Shown: positions 5,533 through 38,653 of the stretch, one piece after another
Layout of the letters: every line of letters begins with the position of its first letter
How positions within the stretch are numbered: position 1 is the first letter of the stretch
DNA from: an uncultured Methanobrevibacter sp.
Lineage (GTDB): Archaea; Methanobacteriota; Methanobacteria; Methanobacteriales; Methanobacteriaceae
Direction: 5' to 3'
Assembly: GCF_902801725.1 (NCBI RefSeq)
Contig: NZ_CADCJB010000001.1
Span: forward strand, 1-64,000
Length of the DNA stretch: 64,000 nt
Position numbers and translations under genes: made by a program
The notes under the pieces: generated by a model
The model's input: the letters and a program-made list of their open reading frames with translations, nothing else
Told to the model about the DNA's origin: nothing
The model's database searches: none

Positions 5533-6399
5533 TCACAAAAAATCACCACAAAAATATTCAACATCTAAAAATTTACAACAGAAAAAAGCATTAAAACAAG
5601 TATTAAAGTTTAAACAAAAAGAGATATTTTCAAAAATGATTAATCCTTCATCGCCAACAACAGAGTTATCGATACTGAAAACAAAATCATTTGCAGTTTT
5701 ATCTGTGCTGACAATTACATCGCCATCAACGTCAGATGAAAAATTATCTACAAAGACAAATTGAATATCCTGATTGATTAAAAGATTATTTTTTAATTCT
5801 AAAACCTTAAATAAACTACGTTTAAAACCGCCTGTAGTTTCAAAACTTGTAGTTTCAGTAAATAAATCATTTTTTAAAATGAAATTTACATTACTATAAT
5901 CATGTTTAGAAATAAAAATAGAATCTTGATTAATGACCTGATTGATTTCTATTGTCAATTCCTTAGTTTCCAACTCACTCATGTCTTCATAATTTATATT
6001 ATTGAAATCTACAACATCATTAATATTTTCACAATATAAATTTGGAATATCCTCTTTTTCTTCGACAATATCATGAGCTTCAACAACAGAACAATCCTGC
6101 TCTGAAATAGAGATATCACTATTAAATTCTTCAATTTCTTCGCCAGATTCCATATGAGCAAAATTTTTCTCATATTTTTCCTCAACAGCAGGAACTTCAG
6201 AACTAACGGATACATCTTCCTGAGCATATTCAACTTCTTCAATTGAATAAGACTCTTCGACAACGACTTCTTCATCAATTTGATCAGCGTACTCGATGAA
6301 GAAAGATTCACTTGAATCTTCTGCAGCAACTACTGGAATCAATACTAAAACTAACATTATAATAATAGATAATTTTAATATTCTAGATTTGAAGTTCAT
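5533..6399 (-). CDS. Short secreted acidic protein, possibly a truncated adhesin-like protein
   Basis: 288 residues. The ATG at 6399 (MNFKSRILKLS) is preferred over a GTG at 6408 because an AAAGGTG ribosome site lies directly upstream and overlaps the GTG. A clear signal peptide (hydrophobic residues about 10-26, ending VVAA) is followed by a Glu/Asp-rich stretch to about residue 130. A region resembling the start of adhesin-like beta-helix domains (FILKNDLF, GLIIFENISF) comes next. The protein ends abruptly in a Cys/Phe-rich tail (CFNAFFCCKFL), which looks like out-of-frame sequence after a frameshift. I infer a remnant of, or short member of, the adhesin-like family; no function can be assigned. 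Confidence 0.55.
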   Translation of the reverse strand: MNFKSRILKLSIIIMLVLVLIPVVAAEDSSESFFIEYADQIDEEVVVEESYSIEEVEYAQEDVSVSSEVPAVEEKYEKNFAHMESGEEIEEFNSDISISEQDCSVVEAHDIVEEKEDIPNLYCENINDVVDFNNINYEDMSELETKELTIEINQVINQDSIFISKHDYSNVNFILKNDLFTETTSFETTGGFKRSLFKVLELKNNLLINQDIQFVFVDNFSSDVDGDVIVSTDKTANDFVFSIDNSVVGDEGLIIFENISFCLNFNTCFNAFFCCKFLDVEYFCGDFL

Positions 6400-6408
6400 T
6401 ATCGACAC

Positions 6409-8113: not shown

Positions 8114-8686
8114 TTAGAAATCTTCAAACAAAGCCCAAATTTCAGGGTATTTTTTAGAAACTGCCTCTTCAATTAATATTGATGCTTCTTTTGAAATACT
8201 GAATTCAGGTTCTGTTTTTCTTAAATATCTAAAAACAGCTGAAGACCTTGAAGACCAAAGTGTTATTCTTGGATTTTTATCAACAATTTCTTTAACTTCA
8301 GCTATATGTTCTTTCTGTATTTGGACTTCTTGTGGTGTTTGTAAGCTTTCTTCAGTAGATATATCGCTAGATATGTCTTCGGATGCTTCATCAACTTCCT
8401 TATCTTCATTTTGAGAAACCTCCTCTTCAACTATTTCTTCTTCATTATCTTTTTCATCTTCTTCTAAAGAGTCTTCTTTTTGAGATTCGATTTCCTTTTC
8501 AATCTGATCAAAAATGTTTTCTTTTTCATTATCCTCTTCATTTTTAGATACATCCACTTCTTCACCTGAATCTCCTTCATCATTTAACATATCTTCAAGT
8601 GACTGAGTTGAATTACTGTCAAAATCTTCATTATAGAAATCAGGAATTAATGAGTCTAAACCTTTTCCAAGCCCTTTTCTAGCCAT
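8114..8686 (-). CDS. Acidic ParA-partner protein with ParB-like N-terminus
   Basis: 190 residues. Its ATG directly follows the TAA of parA, so the two are translationally linked; the GGAG site lies inside the end of parA. The N-terminus MARKGLGKGLDSLIPDF matches the 'GLGRGLDALI' motif at the start of bacterial ParB/Spo0J, the segment that contacts ParA. Residues about 20-125 are overwhelmingly Glu/Asp/Ser and look disordered. A compact C-terminal region of about 55 residues (RITLWSSRSSAVFRYLRK through KKYPEIWALFEDF) is predicted to be one strand and two helices. The ParB nuclease-like fold and its HTH are absent. I infer an adaptor or site-binding partner for ParA; the C-terminal fold (ribbon-helix-helix or histone-like) is unresolved. 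Confidence 0.7.
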   Translation of the reverse strand: MARKGLGKGLDSLIPDFYNEDFDSNSTQSLEDMLNDEGDSGEEVDVSKNEEDNEKENIFDQIEKEIESQKEDSLEEDEKDNEEEIVEEEVSQNEDKEVDEASEDISSDISTEESLQTPQEVQIQKEHIAEVKEIVDKNPRITLWSSRSSAVFRYLRKTEPEFSISKEASILIEEAVSKKYPEIWALFEDF

Positions 8687-9466
8687 TTATAACTCCTCTC
8701 CATCTCTTTTAAGAATTTCTTTAGCTAATTTTAAATAAGCTTTAGTACCTGTACTTTCAGGATCGTAAATTAAACAAGGTTTGCCAAAACTAGGCGCTTC
8801 GGCCAATCTGATGTTTCTTGGAATTATTGTCTTAAACAACAAATCTGTGTCGCCGAAGTAATTTTTGAGTTCTTTATGTACATCTTTACTAAGTCTGGTT
8901 CTTTTATCAAATAGAGTTAGGAGAATTCCTTTAATAGGTGTAGGACTTCTAAGCCTTTTTTCAACTAATTTTATTGTATTAATTAAATCAGCAACTCCTT
9001 CTAAAGCATAATACTCAGCTTGGATAGGAATTAAAACACTATCGGAAGCTACTAATGCATTGACAGTAATTACACCTAATGAAGGAGGTAAGTCAATAAA
9101 GATATAATCAAATAACGGAACTACATCTTTTAGGGTTTCTTTCAGTACAATATGGTAATTTTCACGTTTTGAAAGTTCCATTCCTGCACCACTTAGGGAT
9201 ATATTACTTGGGATAATAAACAAATTTTTTATAAACGTAGGAATTGTCGCTTTTTTAATACTAATATCCCCCATGATAGCATCATAAATTGTATTTTCTA
9301 CTTTAGTCTTATCAATCCCAAAGCTAGTTGTAGCATTAGCCTGAGGATCCATATCAACAACTAAAACAGATTTACCCATCACCGCTAGAGATGTTGCAGT
9401 ATTAACAACTGTAGTTGTCTTTCCGCAACCCCCTTTTTGATTCATCACTGCAATTACTTCACTCAT
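8687..9466 (-). CDS. parA: ParA/Soj-family chromosome partitioning ATPase
   Basis: 259 residues, normal length for the family. It has a deviant Walker A (KGGCGKTTT, residues 11-19), the ParA signature DMDPQANAT, and a Walker B-like segment YIFIDLPPSLG. The C-terminal IPRNIRLAEAPSFGKP motif is diagnostic of ParA/Soj rather than MinD. It is a cytoplasmic ATPase acting on the nucleoid in chromosome segregation. An AGGAG-type site precedes ATG 9466. It is followed without a gap by the ParB-N-like gene and preceded by a palindrome-rich spacer that may be its operator or segregation site. Confidence 0.92.
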   Translation of the reverse strand: MSEVIAVMNQKGGCGKTTTVVNTATSLAVMGKSVLVVDMDPQANATTSFGIDKTKVENTIYDAIMGDISIKKATIPTFIKNLFIIPSNISLSGAGMELSKRENYHIVLKETLKDVVPLFDYIFIDLPPSLGVITVNALVASDSVLIPIQAEYYALEGVADLINTIKLVEKRLRSPTPIKGILLTLFDKRTRLSKDVHKELKNYFGDTDLLFKTIIPRNIRLAEAPSFGKPCLIYDPESTGTKAYLKLAKEILKRDGEEL

Positions 9467-9861
9467 TAAAGAATTCTCCTTTATCTGATAAGTTTTAAGT
9501 TATCAGTTATGATTTATAACTTAAAAATTCAAAGTTTTAAAGAATAACGTTGAAGTTATTCAGTATTAGTTAAAAGAAAAAAGTTATCTCTTCTAAAGTA
9601 AAACTTAAAGGAAATAAATTATTAGTTTTAACTTCTAAGGGATAGGAATTAAGTTTTAAGTTAAAACTTCTAAATTATAAAAAATAAGTTTTAAGAAATA
9701 ACTTATCATAACTAACTTTTAACAAATAAGTTATATTTTATAACTTCTAATAAGTTTTCAGTTATTAGTTAACACTTGGAAGTTATTAGAGATAAGTAAT
9801 AAGTTATAAGTTATAACTTATAACTTATAACAAAAAAAATTTAAAAAAAAATAAAGAAGGA
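9467..9861. repeat. Palindrome-rich A+T spacer upstream of parA
   Basis: 395 bp without a gene, filled with variants of AAGTTAT/ATAACTT (about a dozen in both orientations). Three dyads stand out. At 9485-9506, CTGATAA and TTATCAG arms flank 8 nt, 19 bp before the parA start codon. At 9651-9669, AAGTTTTAA and TTAAAACTT surround one base. At 9799-9828 there is a perfect 30-bp palindrome whose left half is ATAAGTTATAAGTTA. It also separates parA from trpB2 transcribed in the same direction, so part could act in termination. A centromere-like (parS) or operator role is inference. Confidence 0.65.
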
Positions 9862-11163
9862 TTATTTAGCATTGAGCATATTTCCTTCAAAATAGCTAGC
9901 ATATCCTTTTAAGTCTAACATTCCATGACCTGAGAAGTTCATAACAATAGTTTTCTCTTCTCCAGTTTGTTTACATTTAAGAGCTTCATCAATAGTAACT
10001 TTAATTGCATGAGTAGTCTCAGGAGCCGGTACTATACCCTGGTTACGAGCAAAAGTAATACCTGCATTGAAACAATCCTTTTGGTGAGCAGATCTAGGTT
10101 CAATGTAACCTTCCTTAGTTAAAAGAGAAACAATTGGAGACATTCCATGGTATCTTAATCCTCCAGCGTGAACAGAAGGAGCGACAAAGTTATGGCCTAA
10201 AGTAAACATTTTAAGCATTGGAGTAAATCCGTTGGAATCTCCGAAATCATAATCATAAGTTCCTTCAGTAAGTGTAGGACAAGCACTAGGTTCCACTGCA
10301 ATAAATTGGGTATCTGAATTTCCATCAATCTTGTCTTTAATGAATGGGAATAAAGAACCAGCCAAATTACTTCCGCCTCCTGCACATGCTATCATGATGT
10401 CAGGCTCTTCTTCGGCAATTTCCAATTGTGTTTTCAATTCCTGACCAATGACAGTCTGGTGAAGCATTACATGGTTTAAAACACTTCCTAAAGAATATTT
10501 AACCTCTTCATTTTCCAGAGCTTCTTCCATAGCTTCTGAAATAGCGACACCCAGTGAACCAGGATGGTCTGGATTGTCGGCTAAAACCTGACGTCCTACT
10601 TTGGTATTTTCACTTGGAGAAGCAAAAATATCACTGTCATAAATATGCATGATATTTTTTCTGTCTGGCTTTTGGTTGAATGAAACCTTAACCATATAGA
10701 CAGTACAGTCAATATCAAGCAAATTGCAAGCAAGGGACAAAGCAGTACCCCATTGGCCTGCACCGGTTTCAGTAGTTAATCTTTCAACACCTTCTTTTTT
10801 AGCAAAATAAGCTTGTGGAATAGCTGAATTTAGCTTATGTGAACCGGTGGGGGATGAATCTTCCCTTTTAAAGTAAATCTTTGCCGGAGTATTTAAGTAT
10901 TCTTCAAGTTTATTAGCCCTTACCAATGGAGAAGGCCTTCCCATCTCCATGTACAATTCCCTAACAGTTTTTGGTATAGTAATATAACGATCAGTAGCAA
11001 ATTCCTGTTCCAAACCAGCCTTGGTGAAAGCCAATTGCAAAGCGGCAATCTGGTCCTTGCCTTCACTATTTTTTGGTGCCGGAAGAGGAACTGGTAAATC
11101 AGCAAGCATATTATACCATTGTTTAGGCACTTCATCTGATGATAATTCTATTTTATATGTCAT
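9862..11163 (-). CDS. trpB2: Tryptophan synthase beta chain-like protein TrpB2
   Basis: 433 residues. It is a PLP enzyme of fold type II; the Schiff-base lysine is Lys110 in SPTGSHKLNSA, and the phosphate loop is ACAGGGSNLAG. The extended N-terminus (LPVPLPAP) and overall length identify the TrpB2 branch rather than canonical TrpB1. It condenses indole with serine (or an alternative indole donor) to tryptophan. No trpA or other trp gene is nearby, as is usual for trpB2. The promoter region contains TRP boxes, so repression by a TrpY-type regulator is likely. Confidence 0.9.
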   Translation of the reverse strand: MTYKIELSSDEVPKQWYNMLADLPVPLPAPKNSEGKDQIAALQLAFTKAGLEQEFATDRYITIPKTVRELYMEMGRPSPLVRANKLEEYLNTPAKIYFKREDSSPTGSHKLNSAIPQAYFAKKEGVERLTTETGAGQWGTALSLACNLLDIDCTVYMVKVSFNQKPDRKNIMHIYDSDIFASPSENTKVGRQVLADNPDHPGSLGVAISEAMEEALENEEVKYSLGSVLNHVMLHQTVIGQELKTQLEIAEEEPDIMIACAGGGSNLAGSLFPFIKDKIDGNSDTQFIAVEPSACPTLTEGTYDYDFGDSNGFTPMLKMFTLGHNFVAPSVHAGGLRYHGMSPIVSLLTKEGYIEPRSAHQKDCFNAGITFARNQGIVPAPETTHAIKVTIDEALKCKQTGEEKTIVMNFSGHGMLDLKGYASYFEGNMLNAK

Positions 11164-18911: not shown

Positions 18912-19625
18912 ATGAAACTTGGATTTACAACACTGGCACTATTTATGGAACCCAATAACGACATCATCAATCTGGCAAAAAAACATGGATTTGAAATGAT
19001 AGAAATCCTTGGGGAAGGTCCTTTCTACGAAAAGGACAACGGTGAATTTAAGGACTGCGGTCTGGATATTAGAATCCATGCGGCAACAGTTGACATTAAC
19101 ATCGCCAGCTTGAACAAGGGAATAAGAGACGAAAGCGTTAAACAGATGATTCACTGTGGCCAGTATGCAGAAAGCATTAACGCGAAAACCATTACTGTAC
19201 ATCCTGGAATCATTGGCAGAAATGAACCGCACCTTAGAAAATGGGCTTTGGAAATTGCAGTTGAAAGCATCGGTGAGATAATAGACAATACCAATGTTGA
19301 AGTTTCAGTCGAAAACATGCCTGTTCGAGGAAAATTTTTGGCAAATACGGTTGAAGAAATTGAGATGATTCAGGCCGAAACCGGGTGCAGCCTGACAATA
19401 GATACAGGTCATGGAAATACTTGCGGAAACCTTGAAGAAATGTTATCATTAAAAAATATTAGCTATTGTCATTTAAATGATAATGATGGTGTAAAAGATC
19501 AGCATATCACGCTAGGTGAAGGAACACTGGATTTAAATTTACTGAAAAAGATTGATACAGCCATTATCGAGCTAAACAACTTCGATAATATTTTAAAAAG
19601 TAAAAAAGTTATTGAAAACTTATAA
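18912..19625 (+). CDS. Sugar phosphate isomerase/epimerase (TIM barrel, AP endonuclease family 2 fold)
   Basis: 237 residues. Recognisable barrel elements are MKLGFTTLALFMEP, IRIHAATVDINIAS, TITVHPGI, VSVENMP, LTIDTGHGNT and CHLNDNDG...HITLGEGTLD. These supply the metal-binding Glu/Asp/His set of xylose isomerase-like enzymes. The exact substrate is unknown. It is divergent from the padR operon, and its stop codon lies within a TTATAAGTT inverted-repeat element. Confidence 0.75.
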   Translation: MKLGFTTLALFMEPNNDIINLAKKHGFEMIEILGEGPFYEKDNGEFKDCGLDIRIHAATVDINIASLNKGIRDESVKQMIHCGQYAESINAKTITVHPGIIGRNEPHLRKWALEIAVESIGEIIDNTNVEVSVENMPVRGKFLANTVEEIEMIQAETGCSLTIDTGHGNTCGNLEEMLSLKNISYCHLNDNDGVKDQHITLGEGTLDLNLLKKIDTAIIELNNFDNILKSKKVIENL

Positions 19626-19703
19626 CTTATAATTTTTTTTAATTGTTATTAGTTATAACTTATAAGTGATAATTAGTTTTAAGTTATAAGTTATAAGTAA
19701 AAT
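19617..19703. repeat. TTATAAGTT inverted-repeat element between convergent genes
   Basis: The left arm AACTTATAACTTATAA overlaps the stop codon of the isomerase gene. The right arm (AAGTTATAAGTTATAAGT, within 19680-19700) is its reverse complement at 15 of 16 positions. A further palindromic ATAACTTATAA lies between them. The unit is the same as in the palindrome upstream of parA at 9799-9828. It could be a bidirectional terminator or a dispersed protein-binding site. Confidence 0.6.
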
Positions 19704-19718
19704 TATCGAAAAAAATAA

Positions 19719-33062: not shown

Positions 33063-33998
33063 TTGATTAAAATTTTCAAACTAAAAAATATTATTTCCAT
33101 AAAAGATTTTGAAAGGAAAGACATTGACTACCTTCTTGATGAAGCTGAAAAGTTAGAAGATGTTGCCAAGTCAAAAGAGATTTCAGAAGAACTTAAAGGA
33201 AAACTTTTAGGTTTAATGTTTTTTGAACCATCCACAAGAACAAGACTATCTTTTGAAACAGCAATGAAACGTTTAGGTGGAAAATGTATTGGTTTTGATA
33301 GTAGCGGATCCAGTTCAGTGTCAAAAGGTGAAAGCATTGCAGATACAGCAAAAATGTTTGAGGGTTACACTGATGCAATGGTAATCAGGCACGAACTTGA
33401 AGGGGTTTCAAAATTCATTTCAGACATTGTTGACGTTCCTGTTATTAATGCAGGAGACGGTGCCGGACAACACCCAACACAAACATTGCTGGATTTATAT
33501 ACAATAAGAAAGGAAATAGGTGAAATCGACAATTTAAAAATAGCCTTAATAGGGGATTTGAAGTTTGGCCGTACAGTACATTCCCTGGCAAATGCATTAT
33601 GCCTGTACAATAACGTTAAAATTTATCTTGTATCACCAAATAAACTCAAAATGCCTCAAGAAGTTCTTCATGACCTGCATAAGACCGACATTGTATATGA
33701 AGAAGTTGAAAACATTGAAAGCATAATTGATGATGTTGATGTTTTGTATGTAACAAGAATTCAAAAAGAGCGCTTCGGAGATATTAACGACTATATGAAA
33801 ATAAAAGGAGCTTATATAATAAACAAAAAAATGTTGGAAGGTAAAGATGTCATCGTAATGCATCCCCTACCAAGAATTGATGAAATCAACGGTGATGTTG
33901 ACGATACAAAATACAATAAATACTTCATTCAAGCTTTCAATGCCGTTCCAGTAAGAATGGCAATATTGAAAACATTAATAGAAAACAACCCTAAATAG
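33063..33998 (+). CDS. pyrB: Aspartate carbamoyltransferase catalytic subunit
   Basis: 311 residues. The carbamoyl-phosphate loop [13 protein letters not shown], the [12 protein letters not shown] motif and [11 protein letters not shown] are all present. It catalyses the committed step of pyrimidine synthesis and in archaea usually pairs with PyrI, not seen here. The annotated start is a TTG at 33063, 4 bp after hisG. The usual GGTGAT site appears as GGTTGAT and overlaps it, so the real start may be the near-cognate ATT at 33072. The 3' end overlaps the convergent orc1/cdc6 gene by 8 bp. Confidence 0.93.
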
Positions 33999-35154
33999 AG
34001 AAGAGGGTTGTTTCAAGTAAATCTTCATCGCATTGCAACTTGATAATGTTGGTTCTTCCTTTTCCACGACCTCTTGAAATTGTATTTGTAGAAATAATAC
34101 CCAACAATTCAAGTTCATTAATGAAATCGAAAATTCTTCTATAGGTAACTGCATCCTTCTTGGACAGTTCCTTATATTCATCATATAACTTTCCGGAACT
34201 GATTTCCTCACCATTCTTGGTCAAGTTTAAGATTGCTTCCAAAAGCCTTTGTTGCTGTAAAGGCAAAGTTTGAATAATTTCAGTAACCTTATTATGTTCA
34301 ATTCTATCTTTTGCCATCTTGACATGTTCGCTTGTAACCTTAACTGAATCTTCATCAAATGCCAATTCACCAGCATTCTTAAGCAGGTCCAAAGCGTATC
34401 TTGCATCACCTTCTTCCTTGGCTGCCATAGCTGAACATAAAGGAATTACATCATCTTCCAAAACATCATCGTTAAATGCCAATAGAGCCCTTTCTGTTAG
34501 TATATCACTCAATTGATCTGCTCCATAAGGAGGAAATACAATTTCCTTATCATTCAGACTACTTGTAACCCTGGATTTAATTAAGTTTTTGAAATCCAAA
34601 TAATTACTGATTGACAAAACGGAAACATTGTCTGTTCTTGTTAATGTATAAAGAATCCCATCTCCATCTTTGTCAAGCAAAATGTCTATTTCATCCAGAA
34701 TAACAATCAAAATCAATTTTTTTCCAAAAGCATTTGTTTTGAAGATATCTCTAAATGTATTTACAATTTCTCCTTTTGTCCAACCTCTGTTAGGAACATC
34801 CCTTCCTAATTTCTGACATAATTGGGCTATAACTTGATATTCTGTTGTATAATCAGTACATCTTATGTATTCCACTTTAACAAAAACATTTTTATTGTTG
34901 GCTGCATCAATCAATTGTTCACGAGCAAATTTAGATGCTGCTGTTTTTCCTGTTCCTGTCTTACCGTATAATGTTACATTAGATGGGGTTACTTCGTTTA
35001 ATGCATCAACCCAATATTTCGCGATTTGTCTAATTTGTTCTTCCCTGTGAACTAACTTATCAGGTAAAAATCTATGATCCAAAGGTTTTTTATCTTTAAA
35101 GATGATTTTGCTTGATGAGTCAGTATGTTCTATTTCATCGAAAATGTTTGACAT
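33991..35154 (-). CDS. cdc6: Orc1/Cdc6 replication initiator
   Basis: 387 residues. The AAA+ domain has Walker [14 protein letters not shown], Walker [14 protein letters not shown], sensor 1 [12 protein letters not shown] and the arginine-rich sensor 2 region ([19 protein letters not shown]). A C-terminal winged helix (residues about 290-387) binds DNA. It recognises ORB elements at the origin and loads MCM. It is transcribed away from the adjacent origin-like region at 35155-35788, the usual archaeal arrangement. Its end overlaps pyrB by 8 bp. Confidence 0.95.
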
Positions 35155-35445
35155 GTTAACACCAGTAAATTGATAATATAAATTAAAGTAAAAATTAGAA
35201 AAAAACTGTAAGTATAATTTCTAGTGATAATATATTGCAAGTCTAATAAATAAAGTTTTTTATTACAATAGTGATAAAAAAATTATAATCGGATAAATAT
35301 ATTTTCTTTAAATCAAATATATTAATCTTAAAACTTATGATTTTACAATTAAAAAAATAAATCAATTTAATTTCATAAAATAATGATTTATATCCAATTA
35401 AAATTAAAACATGAAATAGTAAAATTTCAATTATAAAAATAACTA

Positions 35446-35458
35446 TTTCAAGTGTAAA
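35446..35458 (-). promoter_or_regulatory. Mini-ORB
   Basis: Exact reverse complement of TTTACACTTGAAA. The extended CTCT-side half is not conserved here. It is the origin element nearest to orc1/cdc6. Confidence 0.8.
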
Positions 35459-35542
35459 AATTCACTCATCTGATAAAAATCCATAACCATATTTAACTTT
35501 AAGGAAAATTTTTCAAAGAAAAATTAGTAGTGTCAGAGTGAG

Positions 35543-35562
35543 AGAGATGTGTTTCAAGTGTA
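35543..35562 (-). promoter_or_regulatory. Origin recognition box, full form
   Basis: On the minus strand it reads TACACTTGAAACACATCTCT. It shares its 20-bp form with 35591-35610 except at two positions. The spacing of 48 bp between the two suggests similar faces of the helix. Confidence 0.85.
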
Positions 35563-35590
35563 TGACTTTTCATCCAAAAATCAATTTTCA

Positions 35591-35610
35591 AGAGATGTAT
35601 TTCAAGTGTA
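35591..35610 (-). promoter_or_regulatory. Origin recognition box, full form
   Basis: On the minus strand it reads TACACTTGAAATACATCTCT. Same orientation as the box at 35543. Confidence 0.85.
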
Positions 35611-35704
35611 TCGAAAATGAAAAAATGATAAGAAATCAGAAATCTCAAATAATAATGTTAAAATCAGCTAAAATTTAAAATAAAGAAAAAATTTGAAAGA
35701 TAAA

Positions 35705-35735
35705 TTTCAAGTGTTTACAGTTGAAATATACCTCT
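35705..35735. promoter_or_regulatory. Overlapping inverted pair of ORB-like elements
   Basis: A minus-orientation core (TTTCAAGTGTTTA, 35705-35717) abuts a plus-orientation element with TTGAAATATACCTCT (35721-35735). The TTTCAA/TTGAAA arms form a dyad. Orientation switches from minus to plus here. Confidence 0.65.
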
Positions 35736-35762
35736 TCAGTCTTAATATATCCACAAAATGGT

Positions 35763-35782
35763 TATACTTGAAATGCACCTCT
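35763..35782 (+). promoter_or_regulatory. Origin recognition box, full form
   Basis: TATACTTGAAATGCACCTCT in plus orientation, opposite to the boxes at 35543 and 35591. It lies 7 bp beyond the stop codon of the neighbouring minus-strand gene (35789). Confidence 0.82.
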
Positions 35783-35788
35783 CCCTCT

Positions 35789-38404: not shown

Positions 38405-38653
38405 TTAGATTGATTCTAATTTTGATAAAACTTCCCAAATCAATGTTCTTGCATGAACAGGAATATTTGGATCGTTACTGATTTCGTCTAATTTTCCTAA
38501 GACGGTACTAATCCTAACAGATTGGTCTTGTTCTTCATCCTTTAAAAGTTCATTAGATTCACTTGCTGCTTCCCGAATGTTACGAGGCACAGTATTATTA
38601 TCCATGATGTATTCAAGAATTTCTGAAACTTCATCAATTGTTTGATTGCTCAT
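38405..38653 (-). CDS. UPF0147 family protein
   Basis: 82 residues from ATG 38653, with GGAGGGG upstream; the in-frame TTG five codons earlier overlaps this site and is rejected. The sequence (LEYIMDNNTVPRNIREAASESNELLKDE through SNDPNIPVHARTLIWEVLSKLESI) is a small all-helical protein typical of the archaeal UPF0147 family. Function unknown. It is convergent with cbiG. Confidence 0.85.
   Translation of the reverse strand: MSNQTIDEVSEILEYIMDNNTVPRNIREAASESNELLKDEEQDQSVRISTVLGKLDEISNDPNIPVHARTLIWEVLSKLESI

Follow-up and report, generated by a model that had tools for sequence, protein, structure and literature searches.

The closest described relatives of the locus studied here are the archaeal SegAB systems, in which SegB, a site-specific ribbon-helix-helix (RHH) DNA-binding protein, is encoded downstream of segA; they occur in Thermoproteota and Euryarchaeota (PMC5120986, PMC12284271), and Methanothermobacter thermautotrophicus has already been named among the euryarchaeal carriers (PMC5120986, PMC12284271). 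Archaeal chromosome segregation is poorly understood. The look of archaeal centromeres and the euryarchaeal variation on the SegAB theme were described as open in a review (PMC5120986), and in a 2025 study no clear SegB sites could be located close to the segAB genes of a euryarchaeon (PMC12284271). Two further systems bear on the comparison. The structure of Myxococcus xanthus ParA (8ray) is available (PMC12462528), and the residues of this protein that bind the ParB1-20 peptide are L150, G151, L152, E176, L181, T184, and L192 (PMC12462528). The delta/omega system of pSM19035 combines an RHH centromere binder that has an unstructured, ParA-activating N-terminus with arrays of 7-bp repeats (PMC9499535), of which at least four contiguous copies are needed for full ParA activation (PMC9499535).

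The window analyzed in this work, that is, the whole stretch of 64 kb, contains at 8114 to 9466 a gene pair that is assigned by sequence comparison to the known SegAB system, here of a methane-producing, Methanobrevibacter-like gut archaeon, for which Methanobrevibacter MAGs provided the nearest named loci. It probably represents an origin-proximal SegAB partition system that has a heptad-array centromere and a bacterial type of ParA activation.

Gene pair and its distribution

8687 to 9466, minus strand: segA, ParA/Soj-type deviant-Walker ATPase of 259 aa (Pfam AAA_31, 7.9e-63)
8114 to 8686, minus strand: segB, predicted centromere-binding partner of 190 aa, abutting segA (open reading frame and SegB profile match)

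The TAA stop codon of segA is directly followed by the ATG of segB (gap 0). In every locus with enough flanking sequence segA is located immediately 5' of segB, and the junctions at the other loci are mostly of -1 to +3 or consist of a short overlap. A sequence-only reading of this DNA had treated the ParA gene and its abutting partner as one unit, which agrees with the order and tight junction kept in relatives. Orthologues of segB were found in 136 of the 152 genomes of the phylum, covering all 20 of 20 genera; neither segB nor segA was seen in the nearly complete genomes G005, G023, G107, and G143, reflecting either loss or assembly gaps. Among solved structures, SegA matched bacterial chromosomal ParAs best, namely, 8ray (4.5e-72), Helicobacter pylori Soj (3.4e-63), and Thermus thermophilus Soj (1e-55), and reached only 2.6e-17 with Sulfolobus SegA (7dut). 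A plasmid origin of segAB was considered and rejected, since orc1, hisG, pyrB, gatA, and trpB-like genes are present in the same window.

A number of related genes differ in their makeup. One genome carries a second, divergent segAB-like pair (L100, G159:C1:477679-478738), the SegB of which is devoid of GLGKGL. At approximately 46.9 to 47.4 kb, G672:C10 (L121/L127) encodes a SegB-like protein in which the SegB-type domain occurs twice in tandem and which also has long sequence repeats. The record of the Methanohalobium evestigatum plasmid NC_014254.1 (L097/L118, G259:C2) ends with a SegB-like gene, preceded by an open reading frame with an AAA-type P-loop (GMGKSS) that is not ParA. Elsewhere in the window, an acidic open reading frame of 291 aa (5533 to 6408, minus strand) has a hydrophobic, secreted-like N-terminus and matched no Pfam family above the cut-off.

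The C-terminal domain of SegB and its acidic linker

8123 to 8308, minus strand: SegB domain, predicted RHH DNA-binding domain, approximately residues 127 to 188 (profile against PDB: 7dv2, 7duv)
8327 to 8581, minus strand: acidic, probably disordered linker, approximately residues 36 to 120 (low pLDDT at 38 to 54 and 72 to 113)

The segB product matched no Pfam or NCBIfam family and single-sequence searches were empty, so that, as had been proposed, the partner has neither a ParB clamp nor a ParB helix-turn-helix (HTH) domain. Its homology to SegB is visible by family profile only. The protein ends in a conserved domain of approximately 62 residues, and a profile built from 12 homologous C-termini retrieved Saccharolobus solfataricus SegB from the PDB (7dv2, 1.6e-10; 7duv, 3.3e-10), the next matches being not significant. 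SegB-like proteins encoded beside ParA in two Sulfolobales-type genomes align with the window domain, and P13, W18, T32, P34, S39, and P55 are common to a ten-sequence alignment that includes Sulfolobales-like SegB. The domain is thus classified, on profile evidence, as the known SegB RHH domain rather than a novel one, and consequently the pair as SegAB. The sequence-only reading had described a novel 55-residue domain and a system distinct from SegAB. Neither description can be kept: the profile search that it had suggested for this domain ended in the SegB family, the outcome it had itself named as contrary, and euryarchaeal SegAB has been described before (PMC5120986, PMC12284271). Structure prediction, also suggested there, gave a divided answer. 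The helices of the AlphaFold models follow the expected order; the models are of low confidence (pLDDT of 56 and 67), and with them Foldseek, searching 350,542 chains, placed SegB 7duv first at a nonsignificant E of 0.36. A histone fold for the C-terminus was dropped, since matches to H2B had E values of at least 0.1.

The linker is rich in E and D, its length varies, and other orders have almost none of it; Methanothermobacter-type SegBs, of approximately 94 to 108 aa, consist of the N-terminal motif, a short linker, and the SegB domain. The long acidic linker is therefore best read from these alignments as a lineage-specific expansion in the family of the window that is not essential to the type. 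The long acidic region that had been put forward as a hallmark of the partner is present in the window protein but does not define the system, because orthologues in related orders have short linkers. That a ParA-positioning system for another cargo, comparable to McdAB or PomXYZ, is encoded here, with a novel C-terminal domain, is very improbable: ParA ATPases do position many cargos, and so long an acidic region is unusual, but the C-terminal domain is that of SegB and is conserved with segA across the phylum, and the locus is origin-proximal and adjoins an iterated DNA array.

The N-terminal peptide of SegB and the SegA pocket

8639 to 8686, minus strand: SegB residues 1 to 16, MARKGLGKGLDSLIPD, predicted ParB-like ParA-activating peptide (invariant positions and Spo0J profile match)

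The N-terminus of the segB product reads MARKGLGKGLDSLIP. Within a diverse set of the family, L6, G7, G9, L10, and L13 are invariant, and other euryarchaeal SegBs (family f10) begin with LGKGLDA; Sulfolobales SegB begins with SELDFLLNRKK and not with GLGKGL. A profile of 12 rows covering the first approximately 22 residues matched residues 1 to 17 of T. thermophilus Spo0J (1vz0) with an E value of 0.0026, which is weak by itself and was the only match below E = 0.1; a single 24-aa N-terminal query found nothing. The counterpart of this peptide in ParA was followed by hand on the 8ray alignment. The M. xanthus ParB-binding residues L150, G151, L152, E176, L181, T184, and L192 correspond to L130, G131, V132, E156, L161, T164, and L172 of the window SegA, so that the ParB-peptide pocket, as judged from this mapping, is kept. 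Sulfolobales SegA is devoid of the QxEYYALEG stretch. No ParB_N protein (PF02195) was found in the 7 genomes searched, and positive controls were found in 10 of 14 known genomes.

The N-terminus might be a convergent or generic short hydrophobic-glycine motif that does not contact SegA, as only approximately 12 residues are common and the E value of 0.0026 is modest. This explanation appears quite unlikely given that the peptide, like that of ParB, forms the very N-terminus of the protein, that two archaeal groups agree in five invariant positions, and that the ParA pocket accompanies the motif and is lost in the Sulfolobales, which do not have the motif. A ParB-like peptide that would activate SegA is therefore preferred. 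The ParB-like tail, the pocket kept in SegA, and the SegB domain together suggest a ParA-activation module that is bacterial-like and a DNA reader that is archaeal. Two claims of the sequence-only reading are thereby sustained by the match to Spo0J residues 1 to 17 and by the pocket, namely, that the partner keeps the ParA-contacting segment of ParB, and that the locus is a ParA-type partition unit whose partner has only this N-terminal part of ParB. The literature searched, mostly without subscription papers, contained no earlier report of a ParB-type activation module with an archaeal DNA reader, and the predicted module is new for this SegAB branch.

A heptad array upstream of segA

9467 to 9861, minus strand: intergenic region upstream of segA with a degenerate heptad array (TAWAAST), predicted centromere and/or operator (7-bp periodicity)
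9791 to 9832, plus strand: longest run, 6 contiguous heptads, containing the palindrome ATAAGTTATAACTTAT at 9806 to 9821 (heptad run scan)
9652 to 9679, minus strand: 4 contiguous heptads (heptad run scan)
9491 to 9525, minus strand: 5 contiguous heptads (heptad run scan)

The 395 bp upstream of segA consist of roughly 50 degenerate 7-bp repeats arranged in phase, with the consensus TAWAAST. The self-identity of this array at lags of 7, 14, 21, and so on up to 70 was 0.50 to 0.56 (z of 6 to 9), the other lags tested being at background, and in a scan of the whole window for 7-bp periodicity only 9421 to 9911 exceeded five standard deviations. AAGTTA/TAACTT half-sites occur 15 times in 9467 to 9861, compared to 2.4 expected and a maximum of 8 in 1000 shuffles. 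A 28-bp four-heptad match without mismatches is located at 9802 to 9829. Runs of at least 4 contiguous heptads, allowing at most 1 mismatch to TAWAAST, were found within the window only upstream of segA, and block shuffles produced none; these in-window counts are descriptive only, because the consensus was derived from this same array. The array is tested independently by the lags and by the data from other genomes. Among 16 other family loci of approximately 8 to 10 kb each, 14 exceeded the periodicity threshold of 0.15, all 14 only directly upstream of segA. The periodicity scan detected no array directly upstream of segA in Methanothermus (L062) or in the distant G055 (L063), and the threshold of 0.15 was not reached by three additional short loci, each with a distal site at its center. 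For the Sulfolobus motif TCTAGASTCTAGA, the window showed no enrichment, with 3 matches versus 11 expected.

The array adjoining segA thus looks like a previously unreported, predicted centromere, the heptads of which SegB would bind.

Distal sites around segAB

19606 to 19702, no strand assigned: second half-site cluster, predicted secondary SegB site (half-site and four-heptad scans)

The palindrome ATAAGTTATAACTTAT, a 16-mer for which at most 1 mismatch was allowed, was mapped in 16 genomes, and distances to segB were obtained for 12. All seven sites were within 45 kb of segB in G046 and G047, and all six of G049 were within 100 kb. The same 100-kb distance included 3 of 3 sites in G043, 5 of 6 in G079, 4 of 5 in G033, 3 of 4 in each of G013 and G073, 1 of 3 in G028, 1 of 5 in G147, and none of 5 in G138; G010 has a single site, near segAB. 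All sites were within 100 kb in 4 of the 12 genomes, with binomial p values from 1.6e-3 to 2.5e-7. The palindrome sites of the Methanosphaera-like G138 and G147 are not clustered at segAB.

Matches to TTATAAGTTATAACTTATAA with at most 3 mismatches numbered 10 to 13 in each of seven Methanothermobacter-type or related genomes, nearly all within 45 kb; the reversed pattern, used as a control, had no match in five of them, 1 match in G038, and 3 matches in G049. Around segAB, the Methanothermobacter-type genomes have almost identical distances between sites; they are close relatives, so that the shared spacing does not represent independent events. Nearly all matches to the four-heptad pattern were near segAB or orc1 in 9 genomes, the exceptions being G138, which is Methanosphaera-like, and G000:C13, an unplaced contig; G028, G073, and G147 had no match. 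In G138:C1, four-heptad sites are located away from segAB, at 1310 to 1340 kb and 2303 to 2314 kb, and a second orc1/cdc6 gene, at 1290 kb, is 20 to 50 kb away from one of the groups.

These positions bear on the function of the array. It could serve solely as the segAB operator, through which SegB represses its own operon, with a centromere elsewhere or nonexistent: the main array and the promoter region of segA overlap, RHH proteins are often repressors, and the parS arrays of pSM19035 overlap promoters too (PMC9499535). We consider this fairly unlikely, as an array of approximately 50 heptads far exceeds an ordinary operator and four-heptad sites occur up to approximately 45 kb from segAB. 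Some of these, at 19626 to 19718 of the window and in L129, are between convergent genes, where a role in a promoter is unlikely; others are upstream of genes (L131). The cluster at 19606 to 19702 is mostly within the convergent interval (19626 to 19718) and is therefore unlikely to be a promoter. A centromere is hence the favored function of the array, and operator and centromere roles may coexist.

Replication origin context

33991 to 35154, minus strand: orc1/cdc6 replication initiator (TIGR02928, 3.0e-120 at 34036 to 35103)
35155 to 35788, no strand assigned: intergenic candidate oriC upstream of orc1, with mini-ORB-like repeats (TTACANTTGAAA-like matches)

In the window, segAB is approximately 25 kb from orc1/cdc6. 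With at most 1 mismatch, 22 TTACANTTGAAA-like matches were found in the window, compared to 7.2 expected, 7 of them in 35155 to 35788, which is likely, from these repeats, to be the replication origin. The distance of segB to the main orc1/cdc6 gene was 9 to 42 kb in 10 of 12 genomes, and 85 kb and 203 kb in G079 and G049, respectively.

In G049 (L105, L141, L142, L143), five of the six four-heptad sites are inside a repeated block in which TTTCAAGTGTAA, the mini-ORB reverse complement, is found approximately 50 bp from the four-heptad site; a coupling of origin-binding and SegB sites in this block is possible. In the distant archaeon G055, a match to an Orc1/Cdc6 paralogue with one in-frame TGA (G055:C37:37160-38149) is located beside segB (38421 to 38624).

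Proposed mechanism and significance

In its full form, the model proposed here is favored with some reserve. It envisages a Methanobacteria-type chromosomal centromere composed of a large phased heptad array and four-heptad satellites in an origin-proximal domain of up to approximately 100 kb, read by an RHH SegB whose ParB-derived peptide at the N-terminus would drive a ParA of bacterial type. SegB dimers would bind side by side to the array upstream of segA via their C-terminal RHH domains, and also to the smaller four-heptad sites, which are dispersed through tens of kilobases of origin-proximal DNA. Through the flexible linkers, the dimers would hold out many N-terminal GLGKGLDSLI peptides, which would dock in the interface pocket of nucleoid-bound, ATP-loaded SegA dimers. 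Peptide and DNA together would trigger ATP hydrolysis by SegA and its release, and the origin region would trail the retreating SegA gradient, as in bacterial ParABS. Gene identity, SegB homology, the ParB-like peptide and its pocket, the array, the clustering of sites near segAB, and the proximity of orc1 are the elements supported by sequence, whereas heptad binding by SegB, activation of SegA by the peptide, and a resulting movement of chromosomes are inferred.

The SegAB core is known. The novelty lies in the predicted heptad centromere and in the occurrence, in this branch, of an activation module of the ParB type. If this is true, the lock-and-key of bacterial ParABS is joined to an archaeal DNA reader. 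The ParB peptide and the ParA pocket common to both suggest that the module for ParA activation can be separated from the one for DNA recognition, and that the two were recombined across the domains of life. With the array and its satellite sites, coordinates that are exact and open to testing are available for methanogens that can be cultured, among them Methanobrevibacter of the gut. In G047, SegB would be expected to bind at approximately 1,286,880; 1,294,880; 1,317,950 to 1,318,010; 1,337,250; and 1,362,095.

Comparison with known systems

As in S. solfataricus (formerly Sulfolobus), segA is located directly upstream of segB, SegB has an RHH domain by profile match, and sites, here candidate ones, are clustered near segAB (PMC12284271). 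However, two Sulfolobales-like SegA proteins are only 33 to 35% identical to the window SegA and approximately 40 aa shorter, Sulfolobales SegAB is devoid of both the ParB-like SegB tail and the matching SegA pocket, and the Sulfolobus motif TCTAGASTCTAGA contrasts with the 7-bp TAWAAST of the window array.

With bacterial ParABS (Soj/Spo0J) the window system shares the ParA class, the N-terminal ParB peptide, the peptide pocket, and origin-proximal palindromic sites near the operon, whereas its partner is devoid of the ParB_N CTPase clamp and the HTH domain, and parS is absent. Since DNA is predicted to be bound by the RHH domain of SegB, no CTP-driven spreading is expected.

The likeness to pSM19035, an RHH partner with contiguous 7-bp repeats, is one of architecture only, and no homology is claimed. 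That system is plasmid-borne and uses WATCACW in 7 to 10 repeats per site, whereas the window system is chromosomal and uses TAWAAST in roughly 50 degenerate repeats together with distal four-heptad sites. By analogy, the 28-bp four-heptad units at the distal sites of G049 would fit the four-heptad requirement of pSM19035.
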